From Rubellicoccus peritrichatus (GTDB lineage: Bacteria > Verrucomicrobiota > Verrucomicrobiia > Opitutales > Cerasicoccaceae), in assembly GCF_033100135.1 (NCBI RefSeq), contig NZ_CP136920.1, positions 5,017,001-5,081,000 on the forward strand: a DNA stretch of 64,000 nt, read 5' to 3'. The stretch's first letter is position 1. Each line of letters begins with the position of its first letter. The notes beneath the pieces were generated by a model that did not search any database, was not told the origin of the DNA, and saw only the letters and a list, made by a program, of their open reading frames with translations. The position numbers were made by a program, and so were the translations under genes. Positions 4,894-29,544 of the stretch are shown here, piece after piece.

Positions 4894-4991
4894 ATCGACT
4901 GAAGCAAACAAAACCATGAAGTGCATTTCCAATAAAAGTTATTACATGAAATCAGCATCGACTGACACTTTATCTGTTCCTACTGACACTT
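4894..4991 (+). promoter_or_regulatory. Candidate operator: ACTGA half-sites phased at multiples of 21 bp
   Basis: ACTGACACTT occurs at 4961-4970 and again at 4982-4991, exactly 21 bp apart. A further ATCGACTGA at 4894-4902 repeats at 4957-4965, 63 bp (3 x 21) apart. Direct repeats spaced by two helical turns are the usual binding pattern of AraC-type domains. The site lies 37 bases before the aldehyde dehydrogenase start and would control the operon 5029-14146. The regulator at 26066 is the obvious candidate, which is inference. Confidence 0.45.
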
Positions 4992-5028: not shown

Positions 5029-6492
5029 ATGGAAGAAACTGAAGCCCTCACCCGCTACAAGCTGTTCATCAACGGCGAATGGGTTGATGCATCCGGCAGT
5101 GAGACTGACGAAGTCCTTAACCCTTCGACTGACGAGTTGATCGGTACGATCCAAAATGGCGATACCTCCGATGCGAACAAGGCGATCCAGGCTGCGCACG
5201 TCGCTCAAAAGAGTTGGGCAAAGTTTCCACCGATCGAACGCGCCAACCGACTCAGAGCATTTGTCGCTGAAATCAAAAAGAACAAAGGCCGACTGACCGA
5301 ACTACTCGTCCGGGAACAAGGCAAACTCCTGCGTGTCGCTCAAATGGAAGTCGATGTCTCGTGCACCTTCATCGAATATGCCTGCGAATGGGCACGCAGT
5401 ATGGACGGCGACATTGTCAAGTCCGACAATCCAAACGAACACATCTGGATTCACAAAAACCCACGCGGTGTGGTTGTCGCCATCACGGCCTGGAACTTTC
5501 CCCTGGCCCTGGCCTGTCGCAAGATCGGCCCGGCTCTTGTCGCTGGAAACACCATCGTGGTCAAACCCACTTCAGAGACACCACTGGCGACACTCGAACT
5601 GGCTGAACTGGCAATCAAAGCCGGCATTCCCAATGGCGTTTTGAACATCGTGACCGGAACCGGCTCTGTCATGGGCGACGCACTCGTCCGCCATCCGCTG
5701 ACCAGAATGGTTACGATGACCGGAAGCACTCCTGCTGGTCAGGCCATCATACGAGCAACCGCCGACAACATGGCGCATGTGCAGCTCGAACTCGGAGGCA
5801 AGGCTCCGTTCATAGTTTTTCCCGACGCTGATCTGGACCTCGCGGCCGACGCCGCACTGTCATCCCGCTTCGACAATTGCGGTCAGGTTTGCACCTGCAA
5901 CGAGCGCCTTTATCTGCATGAGTCGATTTACGAATCATTCATGGAAAAGTTCCTGCCAAAAGTGCAGGCATTAAAAGTCGGCGACCCGATGGACTCGGCC
6001 AGCGACATGGGCCCAAAGGTCAACGCAAAGGAGGTGGCCAACATGGAACACCTGGTCAAAACCAGTCTGGAAGAAGGAGCCAAAATCGCCCATGGCGGCA
6101 AACGCCCGGAAGGTCTTGAATTCGAAAAAGGCAACTGGTTTGAGCCTACTATCCTGACTGATGTGACCCAGGACATGACCATAGTCCACGAAGAGTCTTT
6201 CGGGCCAATCCTGCCTGTCATCAAGTTCAAAAGTTTTGAAGAAGTCGTCACCTACGCCAATGATTGCGAATACGGGCTGGCCGCCATGGTCTGCACCAAA
6301 GACATGAAAACCATCCTGCGCCTGAACAACGAACTGGAGTTTGGTGAAATCTATATCAACCGAGGTCATGGCGAACAACATCAAGGTTTTCACAACGGCT
6401 ACAAAATGAGTGGCACCGGTGGCGAAGATGGCAAGTACGGCTTTGAACAGTATCTGGAAAAGAAAACCTTTTATGTAAATTTCGATAGCTGA
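5029..6492 (+). CDS. NAD(P)-dependent aldehyde dehydrogenase, likely 3,6-anhydro-L-galactose dehydrogenase
   Basis: A full-length 487-residue aldehyde dehydrogenase of the AldA (lactaldehyde dehydrogenase-like) type. The oxyanion Asn156 sits in ITAWNFP, the general base Glu254 in LELGGKAP, and the nucleophile Cys288 in GQVCTCNE. No signal peptide, so cytoplasmic. In known agar pathways an enzyme of this family oxidises 3,6-anhydro-L-galactose to 3,6-anhydro-L-galactonate, the substrate of the cycloisomerase encoded next. The stop codon (6490-6492) touches the ATG of that gene with no gap, which supports coupled translation and this assignment. By sequence alone it could also be a lactaldehyde dehydrogenase; L-lactaldehyde from fucose is the main alternative. 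Confidence 0.85.
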   Translation: MEETEALTRYKLFINGEWVDASGSETDEVLNPSTDELIGTIQNGDTSDANKAIQAAHVAQKSWAKFPPIERANRLRAFVAEIKKNKGRLTELLVREQGKLLRVAQMEVDVSCTFIEYACEWARSMDGDIVKSDNPNEHIWIHKNPRGVVVAITAWNFPLALACRKIGPALVAGNTIVVKPTSETPLATLELAELAIKAGIPNGVLNIVTGTGSVMGDALVRHPLTRMVTMTGSTPAGQAIIRATADNMAHVQLELGGKAPFIVFPDADLDLAADAALSSRFDNCGQVCTCNERLYLHESIYESFMEKFLPKVQALKVGDPMDSASDMGPKVNAKEVANMEHLVKTSLEEGAKIAHGGKRPEGLEFEKGNWFEPTILTDVTQDMTIVHEESFGPILPVIKFKSFEEVVTYANDCEYGLAAMVCTKDMKTILRLNNELEFGEIYINRGHGEQHQGFHNGYKMSGTGGEDGKYGFEQYLEKKTFYVNFDS

Positions 6493-8658
6493 ATGAACAA
6501 GATTAAAAACATCACAACACGGCTATTTAGAGTACCTTTAAAAGAAGTATTAACCGACGCCAAACACGGCGACCATAGTCACTTCGAACTGGTCACCACC
6601 ACCATCACACTCGACGATGGAGCCGAGGGCACCGGCTATACTTACACAGGTGGCCGCGGTGGCCGTGCGATCAAAGCAATGATCAATCATGATATTGCAC
6701 CCGATCTGATTGGCAAAGATGGCGATGACATTGACGGCATCCACGACTTTGTTGAATGGCACATGCATTACGTCGCCCGTGGGGGCATCGCTGCCTTTGC
6801 GGCTTCCGCCATCGATATCGCACTCTGGGATATCAAATGCAAAAAAGCAGACATGCCTCTTTGGAAAATGGCCGGTGGTTCGGCCCAAAGCTGCAAGGCC
6901 TACTTCGGCGGTATCGACCTACATTACTCCCTCGAACGTCTGCTCGAGAACATCCGCGGTTATCTCGACGCTGGTTTCAATGCCGTAAAAATAAAAGTCG
7001 GCCAACCCACGCTTGAGGAAGACATCGCACGCGTTAAAGCAGTGCGTGAATTAATCGGCCCTGATGTCACTTTCATGGTGGACGCCAATTACGCGCTCTC
7101 AGTCGACCAGGCGATCAAAGCGGCAAAGGCCTTCTCAGATTTTGATATACTATGGTTTGAAGAACCGACCCTGCCCGATGACTATACCGGCTTTGCCCGC
7201 ATCTCAGATGTAACTGGTGTCCCGCTTGCCATGGGAGAAAATCTGCACACCATCCATGAGTTCGGCTACGCGTTGAATCAGGCAAAGCTGAGTTACATTC
7301 AACCCGATGCGTCGAATTGCGGTGGCATCACAGGTTGGCTCAAAGCAGCAAAAATGGGCCATGAGCACGGCGTCACTGTTTGCACCCATGGCATGCATGA
7401 ACTGCATGTCAGCCTACTCTCATCTCAACCTGACGCTGGCTGGCTTGAGGTCCACAGTTTCCCAATCGACGAATACACAATGCGCCCGCTGGTCATTGAA
7501 AATCACCGTGCCGTGGCACCGGATGTCGCAGGGACTGGTGTTGACTTCAACTGGGAAAAACTTGCCCCACACGAAGTGGACCCGGTTGCCAATACTTCCC
7601 TCAGTGCGGCAAGCCAACGTGCCCTCAACTACACCAAAGGCCCGGAGTGGTTTTGTGAGATTCGATCAAAGGATATTACCGGCGACCTTGCTGTTAATGA
7701 ATCCGGTATGATCCGTCGTGACCCAAGTGCTGTTATTCAAACCGAAGATGGTTTGTATCATGTCTGGTATTCAAAATCCACTGGTATCAGTCATGGTTTC
7801 AATACCGGTGACGATAACAACAAAACCTTTCCCTGGGACTACAGTGAAGTCTGGCATGCCACCAGTAAAGATGGCTGGCACTGGGAAGAACAAGCACTCG
7901 CGGTTGGCCAGGGCGAACCGGGCGCCTATGATGACCGTAGTGTTTTCACACCGGAAGTACTCGCACACGAAGGAAAATATTATCTCGTTTATCAGGTCGT
8001 GCAATCGCCCTACAAATGCCGTTCAATGGAACACATCTCCATGGCAGTGGCTGACTCACCTTACGGTCCCTGGACAAAAGTTCCGGGTCCGATTGTTAAA
8101 ACCTCAGCCGACGGTGAATGGGAAGGTGAAGAAGACAATCGTTTCGCCGTCAGCAGGAAAGGCAGCTTTGACAGTCATAAAGTGCATGATCCCTGCCTGA
8201 TGGCTTACAATGGAAAATTTTATTTGTATTACAAAGGCGAGCCAATGGGTGAGCAAATGTTCTTCGGCGGTCGTGAAACCAAATGGGGAGTGGCCATTGC
8301 AGACAAGCCGGAGGGGCCTTATGTTAAAAGTCCTTTCAACCCGATCACCAATTCGGGGCACGAGGTTTGTGTCTGGCATTACAATGGAGGCATCGCCGCC
8401 ATGCTGACCACTGACGGGCCGGAGAAAAATACGCTTCAATGGTCTCCCGATGGAATAAATTTTGAAATACAATCTGTGATTAAAGGAGCCCCTGAAGCCA
8501 ATGGCTTGTTCCGCACACCTGATACAGATAAAGGTCCGCTCGAAGGACTACGCTGGGGGTTATGCCACATTGTCTCCGCCAATGCCGGTTTCATTCAACG
8601 CTTTGAAATTGATGAAAAACAAAAGGAAATCTATGCTGCTAAAGCAGTTTACGAATAA
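6493..8658 (+). CDS. Fusion: 3,6-anhydro-L-galactonate cycloisomerase + GH117 neoagarobiose hydrolase
   Basis: A 721-residue protein with two catalytic modules and no signal peptide. Residues 1 to about 365 are an enolase-superfamily (mandelate racemase-type) enzyme: Lys166-x-Lys168 in VKIKVG, metal ligands Asp197, Glu223 and Glu249, and the His299 region in CTHGMHELH. In agar pathways this family converts anhydrogalactonate to 2-keto-3-deoxygalactonate. Residues about 397-721 match GH117: RRDPSA (Asp410), [10 protein letters not shown] (479-488), HKVHDP (Asp566) and SGHEVCVW (Glu624). The spacing of the three acids agrees with my recollection of the GH117 catalytic set (155 and 58 residues apart). 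GH117 releases anhydro-L-galactose from the non-reducing end of neoagaro-oligosaccharides. The fusion joins steps 1 and 3; step 2 is the preceding gene. The sequence shows no frameshift or linker damage; the two halves are joined by about 30 residues. Confidence 0.9.
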
Positions 8659-8708
8659 TCCCTAAAAAAATTACAATTATATACGCCTTACAGACATATC
8701 CTTAGAAC

Positions 8709-10352
8709 ATGGACAGACATATCCCATTCTTCATTGCAGTACTAACAGCATTTCTGCAGATCACCAACATCACTCGGGCCGCTGATAACAGTCAATCAGA
8801 CTCAAAGCGCCCGAACATCATCTTCATCATTACCGATGACCAGAACACGAACGAACTGGGCTATCTGGGAGGCAACTCGCTGACCCCAAACATCGACAGT
8901 CTGGCCAACGGAGGCATTAATTTTACCCGTTCTTATGTCTCATCAAGTGTGTGCTCACCGAGTCGCTACACCTGTTTGACCGGCCAATACGCAAGCCGCT
9001 GCACCCTGCCCTATTTCACAGATCAGGCGTCGAGCGAAGGTGTTACACGCGTGCTCTGGAACATCGGTTTCTCCCCTGACCAAATCAACCTGCCGCAGGC
9101 ACTTCAAGGAGGTGGCTATAAAACCGGCTTTGTTGGCAAATGGCACATCAACGGTCTGCCCGGCTGGAAAACAATTGCAAAAGGGACTGACGTCAACGAC
9201 CCCATCGTGAAAGAAACCCTCGAATCCAATCAAAGGAATTTCAGCAAAGGCGTAAAGACCCACGGTTTTGATTTTGCAAAGAATATTTATGCCGGTAATC
9301 CCGACGATGACCAGGGACTGAAGAATGTGGGACTGAACAAACACAATCAGGAGTGGTTAACCCAGGCGGGTCTCGAGTTTATTGAAGAATACAAGGACGA
9401 ACCTTTCTTCCTCTACTTCTCAACGACCTTAACCCACGTCCCCGACACTCATGAATCACTTACGGGTGACCCTCGCCGCAGTCCAGTCGGTATGCTTGAT
9501 GAACCAATTACCGGTGTGCAGCCTTCACGTGAATCAGTAATCGAACGTTGTAAAGCTGCCGGCATTCCTAAAAAGAACTGGGGTGCAACCTGGCTTGATG
9601 ATGGCGTCGGCGCACTGATGAAAAAGCTGGATGATCTCGGGATTGCCGAAAACACACTCATCGTTTACTTCGTCGATCATGGTATGGTCTCCACGAGTAA
9701 GGGAACTTGTTATGTAGGTGGCTTGATCGCACCAACAGTAGCCTACTGGCCGGCAAAAGTGAAGCCGCAGGTTTGCGATAAAATGATCCAGAATATTGAC
9801 TTCGCTCCAACCTTTCTGCAGGTCGCAGGTATCACGCCACCAGTTGGCATGAAGATTGATGGAAACAGCTTTGCTCCGCTGCTGTGGGGGGAACCGTTTG
9901 AGGGGCATACTTCTGTTTACTCGGAGATCGGCCTCACTCGTGCCGTAACCACAAAAGACTGGCAATACATCGCTTTTCGCGTTCCAGAAAGCATGCAGCG
10001 TACTGTCGATGAGCGCATGAAGGACCACCTCAGGCTGATTGAAGACATGAAGAAAAAGAACCAATGGTATGAGAAGTGGACGGTCGATCCGGAAGCACGC
10101 TATTACCAGATGGGAATGGGTGCCGGTGGTCTCAGTTTCGAGCGTTGGCAGTATAACAATGGTGGTGCGTGGAAACCACATTACTTTGATGCCGATCAAC
10201 TTTATGATTTAAAGACAGACCCACTTCAAAGCACCAACCTGGCAGGCGATCCGAAATATGCAGCCAAGCTGGCCGAGATGCAAAAGCTACTTAAGACCTA
10301 TCTCAACGACCTCCCCGGCACTTACCCCGGGCTAAAGCCTAACATCAACTAA
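8709..10352 (+). CDS. Secreted S1-family sulfatase
   Basis: A 547-residue type I sulfatase, second in the island and clearly different from the one at 2639. Signal peptide residues 1-25 (ending TRAA). Metal site FIITDDQNTNE, then Cys82-S-P-S-R86 as formylglycine motif with the CLTGQ tail, GKWHI near residue 145, and a VDHGM element near 325. It follows the fusion gene by 50 bases and precedes a GH86 gene by 6, so it belongs to the same operon. Expected to desulfate galactan or its oligosaccharides outside the cytoplasm. The exact sulfate position is unknown. Confidence 0.9.
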   Translation: MDRHIPFFIAVLTAFLQITNITRAADNSQSDSKRPNIIFIITDDQNTNELGYLGGNSLTPNIDSLANGGINFTRSYVSSSVCSPSRYTCLTGQYASRCTLPYFTDQASSEGVTRVLWNIGFSPDQINLPQALQGGGYKTGFVGKWHINGLPGWKTIAKGTDVNDPIVKETLESNQRNFSKGVKTHGFDFAKNIYAGNPDDDQGLKNVGLNKHNQEWLTQAGLEFIEEYKDEPFFLYFSTTLTHVPDTHESLTGDPRRSPVGMLDEPITGVQPSRESVIERCKAAGIPKKNWGATWLDDGVGALMKKLDDLGIAENTLIVYFVDHGMVSTSKGTCYVGGLIAPTVAYWPAKVKPQVCDKMIQNIDFAPTFLQVAGITPPVGMKIDGNSFAPLLWGEPFEGHTSVYSEIGLTRAVTTKDWQYIAFRVPESMQRTVDERMKDHLRLIEDMKKKNQWYEKWTVDPEARYYQMGMGAGGLSFERWQYNNGGAWKPHYFDADQLYDLKTDPLQSTNLAGDPKYAAKLAEMQKLLKTYLNDLPGTYPGLKPNIN

Positions 10353-10358
10353 GCTCCC

Positions 10359-12245
10359 ATGCATACTTATATCTCGGCTCTTGCTTTTGCTGGTGCCTGT
10401 GCCGGGGCTACCCTGGCTCAAGGTACTCCGGCAACAGTTGATATCTATCTGGACATAGTCCATAGTGTTGAAGGCATTGAAACCTTTGATCGGACGAAGT
10501 TCATCAACATGCATTCCTCTCAGAGCGAAGGCGAATGGGATAGTCCTGAAATGATGGAACAGTTCCTCAACGGCTGGGATGTTTACCTGGGGCGTGAAGT
10601 TGGCACACCAAGGGTTTATGTCGATCAAGTCAAAGAAGACCCCAACCGTCCGGGTTATCCATCGATTGAGCACCTTGAAGAGCTGGGCTATGAGCATCGT
10701 TCAAAATACTCTAAGAAAAAGGACATCCATGCTTACGAGGAGCGTAATGATTTAATCGCCTCAACGCACATCCATCCGTATTATCCCGATGGAACCAAAA
10801 CAAACATGGGTTGGGCATTCGCAAATGCGGACGCAACAGGCACCTATCTTGCCCACTACTTTAGAAACTTCTTTGGCGATGCTGATGGTGTTCATGGTGA
10901 GCCGGCTCCAATATATTTCGAAGTGATCAATGAGCCCGTTTACGAATTAATCATTGCACCCGGAGATAAGGCGAAGACGAATCAAGAGGAGATATTCGAA
11001 TACCATAATATCGTCGCGGACAAAGTGCGTGACCTGAATCCCGACATTCTTATTGGAGGATTCACCCAAGCGTCTCCCGATCATGAGTATGACAACTTTG
11101 ATCAATGGCACGATAACTGGGAACTATTCATGGATAAGTCCGGTGACAGAATGGATTTCTTTTCCATCCATCTTTACGACAAAGGATGGGATCGCGGTAA
11201 TCAGTATTTGAGAAAAGGTTCAAACGTCGAGGCTATCCTCGATATGATCGAACATGCCAGCCATGACAAACTGGGCGTAGCAAAGCCGTTTCTCATCTCG
11301 GAGTATGGCGCTTATGATGCTGCCTATGCGGAAGACCCTTTCACTCCCGAACGAGACTGGATTAATCTAAAAGCGTTTTCATCAATGATGCTGAACTTCA
11401 TGGATCGGCCGAATTTAATTCTCAAATCGGTTCCCTTCATGATCATGAAAGCGAACTGGTGGAATCATGAATCAGGCCAACCTTACGCTTACCGGCTTTT
11501 GCGCGAAGAAGATGGTGAATGGGTCTACACAGAGCTCGCAAAATTTTACGAATTCTGGACAGACGTGAATGGCACACGTGTGCGAACCCATTCCTCAGAC
11601 CCTGACATTCAGTCGGATGCTTATGTGCAAGGCAACACAGTCTACCTGATCTTAAACAATCTGGAATTTGAAAGCCGTCGTGTCGCCCTTAACTTTATAG
11701 ATGCCGATAAGGCTAAAGTAAACTCTGTTACGGTAAAACAACTCCATGCTCCGGACGGAAAGCCAGCTCTTGATGTGGATATGCTAAACGCATTGCCCAG
11801 TGAAGTCGAAATCAGTGCGGAAGCCGCCATGATTGTAGAATGCGAATTTGACCGACCACTCAATATGTCGCAAAGACTTGATCAGAAAAAGTATTACGCT
11901 GACAAGTATCTACAACCAATCAATGAAGCACCGCTTGATTTCCAATTTAGCGACATCGAAATCGGTCATGCGGGCGAAGCCACGCTTCGCATCGGTCTTG
12001 GCCGCGAACATAACTTATCACTTCAACCGGAAATTGAAGTAAACGGGAAACGCCTGGAACAAGCCTCCTCAGATGTAAGCGGTGATGATCAGCTTCGCCG
12101 CAAGACCTTTTTCGGAGTCATCGAAGTTCCAGTCCCCTACAATTTCCTCAAAGAGGACAATACAGTGACATTGTCCTTCCCCGACCAAAGCGGACACGTT
12201 AGTAGCCTCGCCCTCGAAGTGCTCAATCTTAACTCCAATCAGTAA
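10359..12245 (+). CDS. GH86-type beta-agarase/porphyranase
   Basis: 628 residues. Signal peptide 1-21 (AGATLAQ). Barrel motifs: YFEVINEPV with Glu192 as likely acid/base, DFFSIHLYD, and FLISEYGAY with Glu315 as likely nucleophile. A C-terminal beta-domain (about 520-625; LRIGLGREHN, VPYNFLKEDN) is shared with the next gene. No extra N-terminal lectin-like domain, unlike the paralogue at the left edge. The start is 6 bases after the sulfatase stop. GH86 fold is well supported; which galactan backbone it cuts is not. Confidence 0.85.
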   Translation: MHTYISALAFAGACAGATLAQGTPATVDIYLDIVHSVEGIETFDRTKFINMHSSQSEGEWDSPEMMEQFLNGWDVYLGREVGTPRVYVDQVKEDPNRPGYPSIEHLEELGYEHRSKYSKKKDIHAYEERNDLIASTHIHPYYPDGTKTNMGWAFANADATGTYLAHYFRNFFGDADGVHGEPAPIYFEVINEPVYELIIAPGDKAKTNQEEIFEYHNIVADKVRDLNPDILIGGFTQASPDHEYDNFDQWHDNWELFMDKSGDRMDFFSIHLYDKGWDRGNQYLRKGSNVEAILDMIEHASHDKLGVAKPFLISEYGAYDAAYAEDPFTPERDWINLKAFSSMMLNFMDRPNLILKSVPFMIMKANWWNHESGQPYAYRLLREEDGEWVYTELAKFYEFWTDVNGTRVRTHSSDPDIQSDAYVQGNTVYLILNNLEFESRRVALNFIDADKAKVNSVTVKQLHAPDGKPALDVDMLNALPSEVEISAEAAMIVECEFDRPLNMSQRLDQKKYYADKYLQPINEAPLDFQFSDIEIGHAGEATLRIGLGREHNLSLQPEIEVNGKRLEQASSDVSGDDQLRRKTFFGVIEVPVPYNFLKEDNTVTLSFPDQSGHVSSLALEVLNLNSNQ

Positions 12246-14146
12246 TGCAACACATGAAAACAGTATTTTCCATCCTGACTACCAGCGTCGCTATAGCCAG
12301 CATCAGCACTTCAAATGCTCAAACTAACAAAGCCAGCGAGGACGATGCAGACAAACCTGTTGTGGTTAACCTGGACCCCACATGCGTAAGGTCCATTGGC
12401 GGGATAACGGAATTCAATCGCGATCAGTTTATCACGATCCATGCCTCTCCCCACGATGGAGACATGCTGGACGAGGATTATGCGTACCTTGAAAATGAGC
12501 TTGAGATATCCTACGGCCGCGATGGTGGCCATCGCACCGGGATTCGTAATCAAACCGAAGCAGATCCCGACCGACCAGACTTTCCTGATGTTGATAGTAT
12601 TCGTGAGCATGCTGAAAATTATAAACAACATCGCGCAAACGGACGCCCAATCGATTCGCGACATTTGCGTGAGATGATACACTGCACGCACCCTCAATGG
12701 TATTTTGCCAGCGAAAGCAACACGTCAGCTCCCTTTGGACCAACGACGATGGAAGGTGCGGCTGAATTCACTGCGCAATTCCTGAAGCACTTTTGGACAG
12801 ACGAGAATCGCCCCAAGTATCTCGAAGTCTTCAACGAACCTTTTGTCCACAAGAAGGATATCGAAGGTGCGACCATTGAGGGATTCAGTGAACAGCATGT
12901 CATCGTGGCGCGCCGCATCAAAGAGCTCACCCCGGATGTTCTTGTCGGTGGTTATACAGCAGCCTGGGCGGAACTGGAACACGACAACTTCGGCCATTGG
13001 GATCGTTGGCAGAAAAAGTTCATGGATATTGCCGGCGAAGACATGGATTTCTTTTCCACACATATTTACGACGGCATCAATGTGGTTGGTGAAGCACGCA
13101 ATCGCACGGGAAGCAACTCAGAGGCGATCATTGATACAATCGATCAATATAGTTGGCTATCCTACGGAGTAGCCAAGCCGCAGGTAATATCAGAGTATGG
13201 GTTGATACCAGAAGGGAATATGGGCTCCATGCCATACAGCCCCAAACGATCAGCCGCGATGATTCGGTCAACCAATGCACAGCTGATGACCTTTATGGAT
13301 CATCCTGACCGACTGCTCAAGACCATCCCTTTCTTTCTCGGCAAGGCACTATGGACTTACAACATGAAAGGAGAAACAAAGCCAGGAGAAGCCAATCCTT
13401 TCCTTCTCTGGCGACGTCTCGCAGACGGTAGCTTTGTTAAAACGGACCTTGTGATGTTTTACCAGTTCTGGAAAGGCGTCCATGGTGAATGGCGTTGCAG
13501 CAACAGCAGCGATCCTGATCTACGTTGCCATTTCCTCGCTGACGGCAAGCGTTTGAATGTAATCATGATGAACATTGAAGACAAGGCCAGGAAGGTTCAA
13601 TTGAATGGGCTGGGAAAGCTGAATCCTACTGCAGTGACACTTCGCACAATGCGTACTGATGGTGAAGCACCGGTGTTGGCTGAAAGTAAACTCAAGACGA
13701 TTCCGGCATCTCTTGATCTTGCTCCGGGAGAAAGTGCTCTCCTCATGATTGATTTATCTAAAGCCATCACTCCAACAAAAACATCAGAAGAAACCCGTAA
13801 CTACGCAACCAGTTACATGCATCAGATAACTGCCAGCGAGCCCATAGAATTCGACTTTGAAGATGTCCCAACAGGCGAAGGTTCTGCCATTCTTCGACTT
13901 AGCATTGGACGTGAGAAAGACAAATCCGTTCATCCCACCGTTCATTTCAATGGCACCCAACTCACGGTCCCCACGGACTGGGCAGGCGACGATCAAGCAG
14001 GACGCGCAACCTTCTTCGGCATGATTGAAGTCCCAGTGCCCATGGATCTGATATCAGAGACAAACACCACCACAATAAGTTTCCCGGACAGCGGAGGTAA
14101 AGTTGCCAGTGCGGTGCTTCAGGTGAATGAGCTTTCTCCAATGTAA
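12245..14146 (+). CDS. GH86-type beta-agarase/porphyranase
   Basis: 633 residues, start overlapping the previous stop by one base (TAATG); a second in-frame ATG at 12254 gives an equally good signal peptide (ending ISTSNA). LEVFNEPF (Glu198) and VISEYGLIP (Glu317) are the catalytic pair; DFFSTHIYDG lies between. The C-terminal beta-domain (about 530-630) resembles that of the gene before and of the left-edge gene. The tandem arrangement suggests duplication followed by divergence, giving enzymes for differently sulfated stretches. It is the last gene of the operon; no clear terminator hairpin is visible in 14147-14199, where it meets a convergent gene. Confidence 0.85.
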   Translation: MQHMKTVFSILTTSVAIASISTSNAQTNKASEDDADKPVVVNLDPTCVRSIGGITEFNRDQFITIHASPHDGDMLDEDYAYLENELEISYGRDGGHRTGIRNQTEADPDRPDFPDVDSIREHAENYKQHRANGRPIDSRHLREMIHCTHPQWYFASESNTSAPFGPTTMEGAAEFTAQFLKHFWTDENRPKYLEVFNEPFVHKKDIEGATIEGFSEQHVIVARRIKELTPDVLVGGYTAAWAELEHDNFGHWDRWQKKFMDIAGEDMDFFSTHIYDGINVVGEARNRTGSNSEAIIDTIDQYSWLSYGVAKPQVISEYGLIPEGNMGSMPYSPKRSAAMIRSTNAQLMTFMDHPDRLLKTIPFFLGKALWTYNMKGETKPGEANPFLLWRRLADGSFVKTDLVMFYQFWKGVHGEWRCSNSSDPDLRCHFLADGKRLNVIMMNIEDKARKVQLNGLGKLNPTAVTLRTMRTDGEAPVLAESKLKTIPASLDLAPGESALLMIDLSKAITPTKTSEETRNYATSYMHQITASEPIEFDFEDVPTGEGSAILRLSIGREKDKSVHPTVHFNGTQLTVPTDWAGDDQAGRATFFGMIEVPVPMDLISETNTTTISFPDSGGKVASAVLQVNELSPM

Positions 14147-15058: not shown

Positions 15059-18000
15059 TTAAATTTCGCTACCTTCTAACCAACGGAAAGAAACAACTTC
15101 AAATCTGCGTCCAAATCTAACATTGTCATGAACCGAAGGGTCATCGTGTGGTTCATCGGTACTATTAAGGTAATCAGGCTTACGCTGGACAACCATTTCG
15201 CAGTATGCCTCTCCCAATGTATCTCCGGAGAACGGGTCATTATAGTCACCATATGAACGAATCACAAAAGTATCACTACGTGGCGTGATAATTGAACCAA
15301 GCTTACTTAGAAGATCAGCTTGTGTCAAAAATCCAGGAGTTCCTTCTGCCAAAGGACGATTTTCGACAGCCGCGACAGAATCGCTTAGGTAAGGCGCAAT
15401 ATTGGAAGGAATGTCTTCAGACGAATAATTGTCATCCCAAAGACCGTTTCCTGTTTGCGAATCTCCGTTCACATTGAAAGCTGGGGTACCATTAATCGCT
15501 GCCTGATCAATTGCCTGTTGGAGTGCACCTTGATAGGCAAAGCGCTTGCGAACGTCACTATTAATATCCTCAGCATCAATGGAGCGATTGATAAACTCTG
15601 ACAAAGAGAGGAAAGGGTATCCTTTCACGGATCTACGTGTGCGAATCTCATCAACTATATTTGTAGCTAGAACTGAGATTTGGCTATCGGATAAGTTTCG
15701 AAACCCTGATACAATACGATCATTTTCAGAACCATAACTTGGATTCTCCGATACTGACTGAAGTTCTGGTTCGACGAATCGAGAAAAGTTATGAACTAGA
15801 GTATCGGTACTAGGGTCCTCACCAAGTGTATCGACATCACGCAATGCCCCCAAAACAGATTCCCAAGCTGCAACAGAGGTGGAATTAATATTAAAGCCGC
15901 CATCAAGCATCAATTGCGATGCAGCACGCTCCTCTGAGAGTAAGTCTGTATCACTTACATTATCGTATGCTGCAGTCATTCGTGCATTAGGTAATGGAAA
16001 ACTGACAGTCCCCCCACTTCTATTATTGGGTAAGATCGTCGACATAAAAAAGTTATCCCAAAGCATGTCATTCAGCTCATAAGAATAATCGTAATGAGCG
16101 CCTTTCCAATCTAGATTCCGATTATTGTAAAATCCATCAAACGCATCACTTGCATTAGACTGATCAAAATTAAGTTTCGTTGTACCTAATGGCAGGTGAA
16201 TATTAGCGAACGAATTACCAATAGCATACGAAGGTGCAGTGTGACTTTGCTGGATATTGTTTCCCCAGAACCTGTCATTAAAGTTATTAGCGATTGCATC
16301 TACATTCATTAGATTTGCATGCATAAATTGTCCGATGCCTAATGGTGGATTCTCTGGAATCTCAAATAAAATCATACGATCACTACCATCTCCCTTATCT
16401 GAATTACTCAATCCGATATACGAGAAAGTATTATCAACACCATCCAAATAGTTAACAGCAGTATTTCCTTCCCACCAGGAAAGCTTTCCAGAATCATAAA
16501 GACGATAGCCAAAATTCTTCCAGTCCGGCATGAGACGGACATGAATCTGATCATACGCAATCGGTGATCTTGGATTCATCTGACTCAGCAAATGTATAGC
16601 CTGTAGCCCATCATGCCTGTCAAGCTTAGGTAAATTCATGATCAAAGTCGATCCGGTGATTCCACGCGCATAAGAGTGAATGTCGTTCACATCCACTGGA
16701 GAAATTAGATCCTCTGGATCAACATCAAGAGAAGATGCCGCAGTTTCACCTTCAGGTAAGATGAAAGAAAAATCAGACTCATCTATGTCACTCACCTTGA
16801 TCACTCTACGAGAATGCCATGGATGATTTCTATCGATATCACCCATTCCGTAGGTCATAAGAGCGATAAAGCGATCAACTTCATCGAATTCAGTATCACT
16901 GTATAAGTTTGTGACCTGCTGCCACACATGCGGGCTAGTCCCTGCCATCGATACATCAATAAAATCAACATCTGCTGCTGTCGCAGTTGCTGTTGTTGTT
17001 CCAGCCGCAATTCTTTTCGGGCGTGTAAAAAATCCTCGAATCAGATCAGCACTGGCACCAACTTTAAGTAAGTTAAGTTCTGGCTGCTTAAAAGCATGAT
17101 AGGAGTTCACTGGAGGTGAAAAATTTATAGCTCTTCCTGCAGGAATCGTAGTTCCTGCAATTGTAAAACGAACCATAGAACGATTCTGACCTGCCGGATG
17201 TTCAAATTGACTACCGCTTAGCAGTGTCAGGATGTTGGTGCGATCATTACCATTTGGTTTGTCATATAGAAAGACACCACGCATGTCCAATTCCAGTCCT
17301 AGGTCCGGAATGACCATGTCTTTGTCATACGGGTTCCAAAGGGTTATCAGTGGAAACATGCCAACTGTATATTCATAATCAGTGGCTTTTGGCTGACCAG
17401 GATTTGTAGGTATGCTAATCTGATTGGCAAAAGCTTGGACGATAAAATTGAAACGTGTCACAACCGGAGCAATTCCAATATCATCTTCAGTTGGTTTACG
17501 CATATCAACTGTAGCCCCTTTGTCTTCACGTGCATACTCATAGTAATCAGCAAGCTGTTCCCATTTTGGCCCACCAGGATCACCACGTTTCAAAGAACCA
17601 TCATCATTAAGTTCTGCTGGTGGGAATATAGGCCCTTGTAAATCAGATGGCAAACCCAGTAGTATGGTTGAGAGATCGCGCTTCAAACCACCATCTTTGG
17701 TATTTACTAAAACTGATCGTGAGTTTGTGGAAAAATCGTGAAAAAACTCACGCTGCAAATCATCGCTGTCAGCCGAAGGTTGAAGTATTGGGAGCATTCC
17801 AACACTGGCTATGCGCTGAGGATTAGTTGATTCATCCTTCCAGATCGATATCCCACTTCCAGCCGAATAAGGGCGATTTCCTTGACTATCCAAGACAGCT
17901 GAAGCATCTGCCTGCTGAGGTATGGCGTGTCGATAATATTCCTCATCATTATCAGTTGTCGTCAGGTATGGATCGCCCAAATTCAGACGGGCCTTTACTC

Positions 18001-18613
18001 CCTCATCACTCACCCAATATGCAAAATCACCAGCTGGTGCCCTTGCAGGGGTAAGGACAGACTCTTTTAAGACAGCGACACGCTCATTCGCATTCGCGAC
18101 GGCACTTCCTGTGCCAGCCAAATCGACAGCATCAGCTTCATCGATCTGAACTCTGGCATTTGGGTTATTTCCACTGACAAGCCATTGAACATTACGTCCA
18201 TCCAAACCCACGACGGAGTCATCACCATCTCCTGTATCCTCTTTACTGGACCAAACACCAGTCCACTGAGCTTGGCCTGCAATCGGTGAAGCTAAAGGCA
18301 CATCTAAAATATCCGACCTGGCAGTGACGCGCTGATCAGGCCCTGCCAGTTTTTGCAAATTACCCAATGCGACAAGCGCTCCCAACTCAGCGTTTTGACG
18401 GGCCTTCAGAAGCCCAAGTGACTGAGTCGCTGATTGGCTCTCGACCGCAACCATAGATCCCAGGGAAAGCATTAGGAGAACGATAAATCCCATTAAGCTA
18501 AGTGCGATGATCAAGGCGAAGCCCTTGCGCTTCGATCGCTGCTTCAGAGATTGGCGACAACAATCCGTATGGTGAGTTGCTGATGAGGTATGGGGTTGCA
18601 TGTCCGAGTTCAT
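15059..18613 (-). CDS. Giant PilX-like pseudopilin (Verru_Chthon cassette A-like)
   Basis: 1184 residues. After a basic leader (SLKQRSKRKG) comes a prepilin-type hydrophobic helix FALIIALSLMGFIVLLML (about 32-49), then an ordinary PilX/GspK-like sequence (ESQSATQSLGLLKARQNAELGALVALGNL). The remaining 1100 residues are a large extracellular body. Long proteins with this N-terminus are typical of Verrucomicrobiota and match the description of Verru_Chthon cassette protein A. The ATG at 18613 is preceded by AAGGAGA seven bases upstream, which fixes the start. It lies 25 bases after a glycosidase gene in the same direction. A role in secretion or surface display of the galactan enzymes is possible but unproven. 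Partners B-D of the cassette are not in the window. Confidence 0.75.
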   Translation of the reverse strand: MNSDMQPHTSSATHHTDCCRQSLKQRSKRKGFALIIALSLMGFIVLLMLSLGSMVAVESQSATQSLGLLKARQNAELGALVALGNLQKLAGPDQRVTARSDILDVPLASPIAGQAQWTGVWSSKEDTGDGDDSVVGLDGRNVQWLVSGNNPNARVQIDEADAVDLAGTGSAVANANERVAVLKESVLTPARAPAGDFAYWVSDEGVKARLNLGDPYLTTTDNDEEYYRHAIPQQADASAVLDSQGNRPYSAGSGISIWKDESTNPQRIASVGMLPILQPSADSDDLQREFFHDFSTNSRSVLVNTKDGGLKRDLSTILLGLPSDLQGPIFPPAELNDDGSLKRGDPGGPKWEQLADYYEYAREDKGATVDMRKPTEDDIGIAPVVTRFNFIVQAFANQISIPTNPGQPKATDYEYTVGMFPLITLWNPYDKDMVIPDLGLELDMRGVFLYDKPNGNDRTNILTLLSGSQFEHPAGQNRSMVRFTIAGTTIPAGRAINFSPPVNSYHAFKQPELNLLKVGASADLIRGFFTRPKRIAAGTTTATATAADVDFIDVSMAGTSPHVWQQVTNLYSDTEFDEVDRFIALMTYGMGDIDRNHPWHSRRVIKVSDIDESDFSFILPEGETAASSLDVDPEDLISPVDVNDIHSYARGITGSTLIMNLPKLDRHDGLQAIHLLSQMNPRSPIAYDQIHVRLMPDWKNFGYRLYDSGKLSWWEGNTAVNYLDGVDNTFSYIGLSNSDKGDGSDRMILFEIPENPPLGIGQFMHANLMNVDAIANNFNDRFWGNNIQQSHTAPSYAIGNSFANIHLPLGTTKLNFDQSNASDAFDGFYNNRNLDWKGAHYDYSYELNDMLWDNFFMSTILPNNRSGGTVSFPLPNARMTAAYDNVSDTDLLSEERAASQLMLDGGFNINSTSVAAWESVLGALRDVDTLGEDPSTDTLVHNFSRFVEPELQSVSENPSYGSENDRIVSGFRNLSDSQISVLATNIVDEIRTRRSVKGYPFLSLSEFINRSIDAEDINSDVRKRFAYQGALQQAIDQAAINGTPAFNVNGDSQTGNGLWDDNYSSEDIPSNIAPYLSDSVAAVENRPLAEGTPGFLTQADLLSKLGSIITPRSDTFVIRSYGDYNDPFSGDTLGEAYCEMVVQRKPDYLNSTDEPHDDPSVHDNVRFGRRFEVVSFRWLEGSEI

Positions 18614-25180: not shown

Positions 25181-25978
25181 ATGAAACATTTGAAATCATT
25201 TATCGCGATTACTCCCCTACTTGCCCTGATCAGCACAAGCAACGGAGCAACTGACGACTTTACATCTTACGCAAACGGAACAGCGCTTTCCCCATCCAAT
25301 GGCTGGAGTGCAAAGTGGGACAGCACTAACGCAACCCAGCAAGACCTCTACACAGTAACAGATGGGGTATTAACTTTGGATACTTCGGTCGCCTGGCGAA
25401 ATTACCACGCATTAAATCAAAGTGGGATCACCATGAGCACCGATAAAACCGCAATCCTGTCTGCTGAATTCCGTTATCATCACACCAGTGGCGGCAACAT
25501 TACTACCAATTTCAACCAAAGTGCATTTGGATTAATGATCAGCGACGATGCCAACTGGTATAGTGGAAAAAACGCTTACTTGGCCATGTCCAATCGTGGC
25601 GGTGCGATTGGAAATCCACTGCCAATTGCTCCATGGATTGAAGGTTGGCAAACGCATACATCATTGGGAGTTGATACGACTGCCGGCGGTACGAGTGAAT
25701 GGATTCGTATCGAATGGAAACTCACTGATAATGGAACAGAGATTGAGGCTGTTGGTGACATTTATAATGCCACCACAGGAGCACTGCTCTACACGACAAC
25801 AACTTACACAACAGGAATAGCATCGGGGTCTACAATCTATGGTGGATTCAGCACAGCCTGGAACGGTATTGGAGATGTGCCAATTGAGAGCTTTTCCAAA
25901 TTTGATGCCATCAACATAGACAACTTCTCTTTCGCACTGGATTCAGTACCAGCAGGGTCAATGATTATTATAAATTGA
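25181..25978 (+). CDS. Secreted LamG/concanavalin-like protein
   Basis: 265 residues from the ATG at 25181 (the TTG two codons earlier is less likely). Signal peptide 1-23 (ALISTSNGA). The remainder is a beta-sandwich similar to lectin-like domains (LSAEFRYHHTS, WIRIEWKLTDNG, IDNFSFALDS) seen in verrucomicrobial secreted proteins. No PEP-CTERM tail: it ends ...VPAGSMIIIN, which looks like the first residues of a sorting region without its PEP motif, membrane helix and basic end. It follows the mosaic gene by 24 bases and is probably co-transcribed. Function unknown; a carbohydrate-binding role is possible. Confidence 0.65.
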   Translation: MKHLKSFIAITPLLALISTSNGATDDFTSYANGTALSPSNGWSAKWDSTNATQQDLYTVTDGVLTLDTSVAWRNYHALNQSGITMSTDKTAILSAEFRYHHTSGGNITTNFNQSAFGLMISDDANWYSGKNAYLAMSNRGGAIGNPLPIAPWIEGWQTHTSLGVDTTAGGTSEWIRIEWKLTDNGTEIEAVGDIYNATTGALLYTTTTYTTGIASGSTIYGGFSTAWNGIGDVPIESFSKFDAINIDNFSFALDSVPAGSMIIIN

Positions 25979-26065
25979 GAACACTATTTTAACACCTAGA
26001 ACACTACTACCACGAAACACTCTACTTCCTATCGCCCCTAAAATTCATATTTTGTCATATTAGAC

Positions 26066-28486
26066 ATGATTCGTCACCTAGACCAATCGAAGGATAAGCC
26101 CCTACGAATCGCAATTGTCGTAGACCCCAGGTGGGCCTACGGCCGACGTGTGATACGTGGAGCCATACAATATCTCAAAGAGAAACCGGACAACATCCAC
26201 TTGGACCTATTCAGTGGGCAACCGTTTTCTAAAACATCGCAATTGAGTGAATATGATGGGATACTTGAAGGCAGCTCAGATGCCCTGCTTGAGCATCTAC
26301 CTGAAAATTGTCCTTCGGTTTCGATTGATGCAATTGGTAGACAAAGTCGCAGTTGCTCAATTCCCATTGACCACCGGGGAATGGGAACAATCGCTGCTGA
26401 CACACTCCATAGCAGAGGTGTCGTCAGCTATGCATATTTTGATGGTGGCAGGAACTTGTCCGCTGAGTCTGATACGCGAAGCACATTGCGCCGTGAAGGT
26501 TTCAAAAAACGACTGCAAGAACTTGGAATAGAGTTGTCATCACCAAATTTCCAAACGCATTCACACAATACATTCAACGATCTCCTGAAATGGCTGCAGG
26601 ACTTACCCAAGCCCACTGGTATTTTTGCATACAGTGATTCGGCATCCCTGGAATTGGCCGAGGCATGCAGAATGCTTGACCTGTTGATTCCTCGTGAGGT
26701 TGCAATCATTGGTGCAGGTAATGACACCATACTATGCTCTCTCCTCCACCCTGCATTATCCAGTGTTGATACACAAACTGAGACAATAACCTATCAGGCA
26801 ATGCACACGCTTATTGGTTTGATTAGGGGCGACTCAGCTACTTTGTCCAACACAACCCCACCGCAGCCACAAGCCGTCCTACGTGAATCAACCGGCCAAA
26901 GCTCTACTCCTAACAAAACCGTCAGTAAAGCTCTCGATATAATCTATAGTGACGAAGATAGAGCTGAGCGCACAACAGCACAAGATATCGCATTAGCAAC
27001 AGGTGTTAGTCTGCGCAGCCTGCAAAGACTGTTTAAGCAGCATCTCGAAACGACTGTTCAGCAAGCCCTGCTGGATGCCCGAATCGAGCGATTCAAATAC
27101 TATTTGCGCACTACTGACTTGCCCATTGAAGAACTAAGCACTCGCTTGCATATCGATTGTTCCAGCCTTCGCAAGAGCTTCACCCGCATCACAGGCCATA
27201 GCCCAGGTCATTACCGCAGTCTCTTCAAAAAAGGTGCCGCACATAATCACCGAAAAATCAACGGAGCAATCAATCCCAAGGTACTCACCATAGGATTTCT
27301 ATCACCACTGAGCGGCCAGGCTGATCTCGATGCACTTCGTGGTGCTGAAGAGTATGCCCGCCAGCACCGTGATATTCGACTGGCATTGCGCGCATTCTGG
27401 AATTATCCAACCGATGCCTCATCGACATACAGTTCGGATGGTGAATCAGCATCATTGGAAAACTATGACGCTTTTATCGTAACAACCGAAGTACAGCTGC
27501 CTGCAAAGCTTATTGGCAAAAAACCAATTATTTATCTGGATCATACAAGAAGGCATTCCCTGGCCTGGTCCATAGGGATCGACAATTGGGATATCGGAGC
27601 GCTGGCAGCACAGCATTTTCTATCAAAAGGATACAGGCATTTTGCTTTCTGCGATTACCCTCGCTACAATGTAGAAACTGATCATACTCTAATTGATTAT
27701 CGCTTTAGCGGGCGCTTCGCCGGGTTTCAAGATACTCTTACCAAAGCAGGTGTTCCTATTCATGAAATCAGGCGTGGCTATAACTCAGAAGATGAACCAT
27801 TACTCGTCTGGTTAAAGAATCTACCCAGAAAAACTGCATTATTCACATTCAACGATGCATTGGCGGTACGTGTGGCAAGACTATGCGCCCAAGCCAACCT
27901 CGAAATCCCAAATGATATTGCACTACTTGGGGTGGATAATGATGAATCGCTCTGCCCCTTCGTACCACCTGGCTTAAGTAGTGTTGATATTGGTTTTGAT
28001 CGTCTTGGTCACATGGCCATTAAAAATCTAATCAACATACTGAAGAACCCAAATTCAGCTTCGGCACTTACCTTTTCGCAACAAGCATGCTCTGTCGTCG
28101 AACGCAGCTCAACCCAAGGTCTGGCGACCGATGATCCGGCTCTAAATGCTGCTTCAAGATTTATCACGCATCATATTGCCGAACCATTGAACGTGAACGA
28201 AATTGTATCTGTCAGCGATGTCAGTCGTCGCACATTGGAAACACGGTTCACTAAAGTCACAGGACATACCATCCACGAACACCTACAGCAGAAACGCCTT
28301 GAAGCTGCCACTAACTTGCTGACCCGCACAGCGGATTCCGTTGATCACATAGCCGAATCATGCGGTTTCAAGCATACACGACACTTTTGTCAGCGCTTCA
28401 AGCAATCGACAGGACAAACACCACTTGCTTTCCGCAAATCTCGTGGTCGCCCTCTACTTCAAAAGCTTTCCCCGGAATGCCTTTGA
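26066..28486 (+). CDS. Duplicated XylR-like regulator: two LacI-type sensor + AraC units in one chain
   Basis: 806 residues in the order sensor-HTH-sensor-HTH. Unit 1: periplasmic-binding-protein-like sensor (about 10-275; RIAIVVDPRWAYGRRVIRGA, IFAYSDSASLELAEACR) then an AraC domain (about 290-395; IALATGVSLRSLQRLFKQ). Unit 2: sensor (about 405-670; LTIGFLSPLSGQADLDALRG, LFTFNDALAVRVARLC, LLGVDNDESLC) then a second AraC domain (about 690-790; VSDVSRRTLETRFTKVTG). Each unit is the size of an ordinary XylR-type regulator (about 390 residues), so this looks like a fused tandem duplication that has diverged. Known XylR regulators bind a sugar in the sensor and DNA through AraC domains. Here one chain could contact two half-sites. 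Three AACACT copies (25980, 26000, 26016) lie just upstream and may be a self-control site. Confidence 0.85.
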   Translation: MIRHLDQSKDKPLRIAIVVDPRWAYGRRVIRGAIQYLKEKPDNIHLDLFSGQPFSKTSQLSEYDGILEGSSDALLEHLPENCPSVSIDAIGRQSRSCSIPIDHRGMGTIAADTLHSRGVVSYAYFDGGRNLSAESDTRSTLRREGFKKRLQELGIELSSPNFQTHSHNTFNDLLKWLQDLPKPTGIFAYSDSASLELAEACRMLDLLIPREVAIIGAGNDTILCSLLHPALSSVDTQTETITYQAMHTLIGLIRGDSATLSNTTPPQPQAVLRESTGQSSTPNKTVSKALDIIYSDEDRAERTTAQDIALATGVSLRSLQRLFKQHLETTVQQALLDARIERFKYYLRTTDLPIEELSTRLHIDCSSLRKSFTRITGHSPGHYRSLFKKGAAHNHRKINGAINPKVLTIGFLSPLSGQADLDALRGAEEYARQHRDIRLALRAFWNYPTDASSTYSSDGESASLENYDAFIVTTEVQLPAKLIGKKPIIYLDHTRRHSLAWSIGIDNWDIGALAAQHFLSKGYRHFAFCDYPRYNVETDHTLIDYRFSGRFAGFQDTLTKAGVPIHEIRRGYNSEDEPLLVWLKNLPRKTALFTFNDALAVRVARLCAQANLEIPNDIALLGVDNDESLCPFVPPGLSSVDIGFDRLGHMAIKNLINILKNPNSASALTFSQQACSVVERSSTQGLATDDPALNAASRFITHHIAEPLNVNEIVSVSDVSRRTLETRFTKVTGHTIHEHLQQKRLEAATNLLTRTADSVDHIAESCGFKHTRHFCQRFKQSTGQTPLAFRKSRGRPLLQKLSPECL

Positions 28487-28674: not shown

Positions 28675-29544
28675 ATGAATAAGAATACCCTATTAATTGC
28701 CACTCTTAGCAGCATACTATGCGCAGCTAGTACTTATGCATATGACATCAACTTCACAACGGCAGAAGGTTATACTGCCGGATCACTAATCGGACAACCA
28801 AGCGGCGGAGGTCCAACATGGACGACAAATGGAGCCGCAGTAGCAACAGTGGACCCAACTGGCAGTGGGACAGCTTCCATTACTGCTTTACCTACCGGAG
28901 TCACACTAGCATACAATAGCAGTGAATCATTTGCTAATTCCGGTGATACCCTCACTTTATCTACAGATTTCGTGATGAATCTGAACGGCGCTAACTATAA
29001 TCCAGACGGAACGAATGTAAGTGGAACCAGTGATAACCAAATCTTTTTAGGTACTGGGGAATTTCTGGGCTCAAATGCAATTCGTACCAATATAATCAAA
29101 CAGAATGACGCCGGTAACTGGAGAATGACTTTCTTTAACGCAGGTGGCGGCGGAGCTGGTGGATTTGCACAATTCTTTTTTATAGAAAGTAACATTGGAA
29201 TAACTGCTGCAGGTGGAGCTGATCTTGTAAGTGACAAACTCAGGCTCACAATTGACTTAACCAGAAATGACACCAACAGCTGGAATGGCAATATCAGTAT
29301 ATACAATGTTGACACAGCCACTGCCATAAACTCGACGGCCTACACAACAACCGTAAACGCTGGTCAACAAGCTGGAACAAACTACTTTGGGACATTCGCT
29401 GGCGTCGGAACTTTTCCAACAAGTATTGACGTGGATAATATCAACCTCACCGTAACTCCCATCCCTGAGCCCGCAACCATTGCCCTGTCCCTGGGAGTTG
29501 CCTGCATAGTTCTCACTGCTGTAAGACGTCGCCGCAGGAGCTAG
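28675..29544 (+). CDS. PEP-CTERM sorted secreted protein
   Basis: 289 residues: signal peptide (1-22, AASTYA), a beta-rich body with low-complexity Gly/Ser/Thr stretches, and a C-terminal PEP-CTERM tail (PIPEPATIALSLGVACI, then VLTAVRRRRRS). This tail is recognised by the exosortase/EpsH system, which is not in the window. The body resembles lectin-like jelly rolls (FGTFAGVGTFPTSIDVDNINLTV). Monocistronic, with its own promoter and a strong terminator. Likely an extracellular-matrix or surface protein. Confidence 0.85.
   Translation: MNKNTLLIATLSSILCAASTYAYDINFTTAEGYTAGSLIGQPSGGGPTWTTNGAAVATVDPTGSGTASITALPTGVTLAYNSSESFANSGDTLTLSTDFVMNLNGANYNPDGTNVSGTSDNQIFLGTGEFLGSNAIRTNIIKQNDAGNWRMTFFNAGGGGAGGFAQFFFIESNIGITAAGGADLVSDKLRLTIDLTRNDTNSWNGNISIYNVDTATAINSTAYTTTVNAGQQAGTNYFGTFAGVGTFPTSIDVDNINLTVTPIPEPATIALSLGVACIVLTAVRRRRRS

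Follow-up and report, generated by a model that had tools for sequence, protein, structure and literature searches.

The open reading frame at positions 26066–28486 (plus strand) of the 64,000-nucleotide stretch of Rubellicoccus peritrichatus DNA analysed here (the window) encodes a protein of 806 residues that carries two XylR-type units, each a sensor followed by an AraC-type helix-turn-helix (HTH) domain, in a single chain. This two-unit regulator is real, rare among the genomes searched, and kept in three proteins; among XylR-type regulators it is a new and rare variant. On balance, it probably regulates a galactan locus in response to sugar and works as a pseudo-dimer formed within one chain by two unequal halves.

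Domain organization and relatives

The reading frame starts with ATG and contains no internal stop. Pfam profiles follow one another along the chain in the order Peripla_BP_3, AraC HTH (HTH_18), Peripla_BP_3, AraC HTH (HTH_18), each above its cutoff, in agreement with the sensor–AraC–sensor–AraC order over 806 residues read in the initial annotation. Its reading of two XylR-type units also holds when the halves are scanned singly: the N-half scores 91.5 bits for the sensor and 55.2 bits for the HTH domain, and the C-half 89.3 and 75.4 bits, respectively, compared to the curated cutoffs of 26.5 bits (Peripla_BP_3) and 33.6 bits (HTH_18). The N-half consists of a LacI-like sensor (residues about 13–276, positions 26102–26893, with Peripla_BP_3 at residues 112–276) and an AraC-type HTH domain (residues about 284–389, positions 26915–27232). 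The C-half, encoded on the same plus strand, comprises a second LacI-like sensor (residues about 406–683, positions 27282–28115) and an AraC-type HTH domain that is canonical (residues about 689–794, positions 28130–28447). The sensor limits are supported by fold matches and the HTH limits by the HTH alignment, which for the N-half includes turn lengths.

An AlphaFold2 model of the whole chain, calculated with 40 sequences, has a mean pLDDT of 84.6 and a pTM of 0.77, and both HTH domains are predicted to fold. The best solved match, by sequence as well as by fold, is E. coli XylR. The presence of two XylR-type units in one chain is supported. The top fold match of the C-half sensor is 4fe4_A of this protein (Z 25.6), and the N-half sensor (residues 10–277) matches LacI-type sensors with Z about 24; the matches to PurR and LacI reflect the common sensor fold. 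E. coli XylR, the D-xylose activator (PDB 4FE4, 4FE7), resembles each half in length and in the order of sensor and AraC HTH domain. However, it has one unit per chain and forms a dimer (PMC6018408), whereas the window protein has two units, an altered second HTH (HTH2) in the N-half, and a location in a galactan locus. Each half thus shows the arrangement that defines the XylR type, a Peripla_BP_3 sensor and then an AraC-type HTH domain, but the type also implies one unit of ~390 residues per chain; since the 806-residue chain carries two, it is classed as a variant of this type. Membership in the LacI/GalR family is not indicated, as Pfam finds no LacI HTH ahead of the sensors in the 806-residue protein, and the DNA-binding domains are of the AraC type and follow the sensors.

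Two more proteins share this architecture. A paralog in the same genome (L002; one contig, 5.8 Mb) has 791 residues in the same four-domain order and is 33% identical to the window protein over residues 10–794. The third member (L011, the same locus as L017), from a Kiritimatiellales metagenome-assembled genome (contig QKAU01000002.1), and thus from another order, has 796 residues, the same domain order, and about 33% identity. Both belong to the same length class as the window protein, both have the shortened N-half HTH2, and their halves group together with its halves, although at about 33% identity they are distant from it and their genes have other neighbours (FucP and GH95 in one case, GH3 in the other). 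With two more full-length members, the protein belongs to a small conserved class.

About 1,900 genome look-ups, made in overlapping sets, revealed no further full-length two-unit copy; the sets included 54 genomes of relatives, 388 of the phylum, 384 of the class, 373 of the order, and 338 of the class of the third member, with just the two or three top candidates per genome scored in the large sets. The known copies were found again wherever their genomes were in the searched set. The remaining set, 343 genomes of the phylum to which the planctomycete L018 belongs, contained no positive control and yielded no two-unit protein at E 1e-90. Of two contig scans, the first gave no match, and the second retrieved many XylRs with a single unit and one protein with two, L017. 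A plasmid search returned XylR-type matches, and the ten places listed each cover about one unit. A sequence from the genus of the third member (G429 contig 223) is only a fragment of the C-half, which shows a frame change and is preceded by unrelated sequence, and it was excluded from the full members. As to a known regulator class with exactly this order, which the initial annotation had set against its own reading, two further members do exist, but no description of a two-unit XylR was found in the open-licence literature, judged by titles and the opening of abstracts.

It is extremely improbable that two separate XylR-type genes were joined here through an assembly or sequencing error. Adjacent separate XylR paralogs do exist elsewhere (L070), but three uninterrupted full-length copies are found at three loci in two genomes, and they can be aligned over the junction. 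A stop missed through misassembly, the other objection raised in the initial annotation, is likewise rejected, as the reading frame has none and independent full-length copies occur at two more loci. Because the genome is a single contig and the same four-domain chain recurs at its second locus and in another order, misassembly can be dismissed to the extent that sequence alone permits.

Unequal halves and their origin

In an end-to-end global alignment, the N-half and the C-half of the window protein are 26% identical. They differ in HTH2, where the turn in the N-half is one residue shorter than in the C-half in all three two-unit proteins. The 59 single-unit XylRs used for comparison are homologous to both halves, but all have one unit, and the full turn is kept in 57 of the 58 that could be scored (shortened in one). 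The Gly-Phe pair of the N-half HTH2 is absent from the window protein and from L002, whereas L011 keeps Gly and has Met in place of Phe; the C-half HTH2 is canonical in all three. The description of both HTH domains as intact agrees with their predicted fold but not with the N-half HTH2, which has a shorter turn and lacks the Gly-Phe motif. In the sensor of the N-half, the window protein has GAGND where most sequences have GVDND. The notion that this sensor is dead through the loss of Asp was rejected, as Gly is found at the same position in 10 of the 59 single XylRs.

A tree of full-length sequences was calculated for the six halves of the two-unit proteins and the 59 single-unit XylRs, which come from Planctomycetota, Verrucomicrobiota, and Bacteroidota. 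The three N-halves form one clade (99/86) and the three C-halves another (100/99), and the two clades are sisters (100/98), although the tree contains long branches. The sensor-only tree concurs (N- and C-halves together, 94; C-halves, 98; N-half of the window protein with that of L002, 92). A topology in which the C-halves are held with the single XylRs L004, L012, and L013 is rejected (p-AU 0.0056). In the weak HTH-only tree, on the other hand, the C-half HTH domains fall with a group holding L004 (87) and those of the N-halves elsewhere. In the full-length and sensor-only trees, the two halves are thus nearest to one another, while the HTH-only tree does not join them.

These relationships point to one internal duplication and in-frame fusion of a XylR-type gene, which probably took place before the three proteins diverged. 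One HTH domain may have changed later or been replaced, since the HTH columns split those of the N- and C-halves. Between the window protein and L002, the N-halves are 33.7% identical and so are the C-halves; being equally conserved, neither half is freely decaying. Elsewhere, at L070:5686-9466, two separate XylR-type genes lie on the same strand with about 1.4 kb between them and are mutual closest relatives in the tree; such neighbouring paralogs are a possible starting state for a fusion.

Genomic setting and candidate operators

The island in which the regulator lies is a red-algal galactan (agar/porphyran) catabolic locus. The likely target genes, whose regulation is putative, extend over positions 5029–14146 of the plus strand and encode, according to Pfam, an aldehyde dehydrogenase, a cycloisomerase-like/GH117-like fusion, a sulfatase, and two enzymes with GH86-type porphyranase domains. 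Beyond them, ahead of the regulator, lie genes for a DUF5060 protein and a 267-residue protein without an assigned family. The regulator itself is located at the end of the island, ahead of the PEP-CTERM genes, as initially described. The 721-residue reading frame at 6493–8658 combines a cycloisomerase-like enzyme (MR_MLE) and a GH43/GH117-like domain in one chain; in a genome of the same order (G016), the parts are matched at distinct sites on different contigs, with 66% and 73% identity. The enzyme is likely a fusion that joins two steps in the release and breakdown of 3,6-anhydro-L-galactose. The island also includes, on the minus strand, a reading frame of 1184 residues (15059–18613) that has no Pfam family and only a trace match to the Verru_Chthon cassette model.

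The paralog L002 comes after a fucP gene, a gene for a DUF5107 protein, and a GH95 gene, all on the same strand. In this genome, each two-unit regulator is followed immediately by a PEP-CTERM-type gene downstream (28675–29544 and L100:9158-9901), and the two encoded proteins are only weakly alike. The gene of the third member faces a divergent gene for an 818-residue protein, followed by a GH3 gene; the 818-residue protein (L101:12272-14728) has no match in Pfam or NCBIfam.

Two direct repeats on the plus strand are candidate operators. The sequence AGAACACTA occurs twice, 20 bp apart, upstream of the regulator (25978–26006), and ACTGACACTT occurs twice, 21 bp apart, upstream of the first catabolic gene (4961–4991). 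Single-base shuffles match the former repeat in 8% and the latter in 3% of cases. A joint pattern built from both repeats has four occurrences genome-wide compared to five for the reversed control; as it is no commoner than this control, the link between the repeats and the regulator is suggestive only. A search around L002 and L011 found no repeats above chance. Within the candidate repeats the half-sites are near-identical, while the two DNA-binding halves of the protein differ.

Proposed mode of action

The protein would be a cytoplasmic, sugar-responsive XylR-type transcription regulator, born from a duplicated XylR-type gene fused in frame. E. coli XylR acts as an antiparallel dimer (PMC6018408); here, a single chain would supply what E. 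coli XylR assembles by dimerizing, a pair of sensors and a pair of DNA-binding domains, and the two units of the chain would pack as an intramolecular pseudo-dimer. The canonical C-half could serve as the main sequence-specific DNA anchor, and the N-half, because its HTH2 is altered, may bind DNA more weakly or with other specificity. The agar/porphyran catabolic genes from position 5029 onward and the regulator's own promoter are the likely targets, and the inducer is likely a sugar derived from galactan, perhaps one of the L-galacto series. L-fucose is 6-deoxy-L-galactose, and agar and porphyran galactans contain forms of L-galactose; a ligand of the L-galacto type is suggested by this kinship and by the L-fucose transporter gene (fucP) that L002 adjoins.

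The pseudo-dimer reading takes support from the four-domain order, the two further members, the sister relationship of the halves and the rejected alternative topology, the equal conservation of both halves in the paralogs, the match to the dimeric E. coli XylR by sequence and fold, the whole-chain model, the altered N-half HTH2, the catabolic neighbours, and the repeats. Counted against it are the HTH-only tree, the long branches, the repeat controls, the lack of repeats above chance at L002 and L011, and the contrast between near-identical half-sites and differing halves. This last contrast would be expected if two chains formed a dimer in which only the DNA-binding domains of the C-halves read the operator, since two equal C-halves would want near-identical half-sites; the N-half would then be a regulatory or dimerization module that has largely lost its role on DNA, in line with the alteration of its HTH2 in all three proteins. 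However, the HTH domain of the N-half scores above the Pfam cutoff and is predicted to fold, and between the paralogs both halves are conserved to the same degree, so that we regard a two-chain dimer of this kind as possible but rather unlikely.

Compatible with either the pseudo-dimer or the two-chain dimer is a two-input switch, in which the two sensors read two different galactan sugars. The halves are only distantly alike (26%), they differ at pocket-type positions (GAGND and GVDND), and the island degrades a mixed galactan, but the Gly of GAGND also occurs in 10 of the 59 single XylRs, and the divergence of the sensors may reflect age alone; such a switch seems doubtful. We can speculate, at a still lower level of confidence, that the protein is a natural single-chain pseudo-dimer in which the diverged sensors read two different products of a single mixed polysaccharide and the unequal DNA-binding halves fix the orientation on the operator, yielding a one-protein logic gate.

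E. coli XylR can unite two DNA-binding domains only by pairing two chains, while both units are built into the protein described here. A chain kept through deep divergence, with one of its DNA-binding halves altered, would make it possible to test how the halves of such a dimer share sensing and the reading of DNA, and sugar sensors with two inputs could be developed from the two-unit regulator. The protein also adds a candidate regulator to a red-algal galactan pathway.
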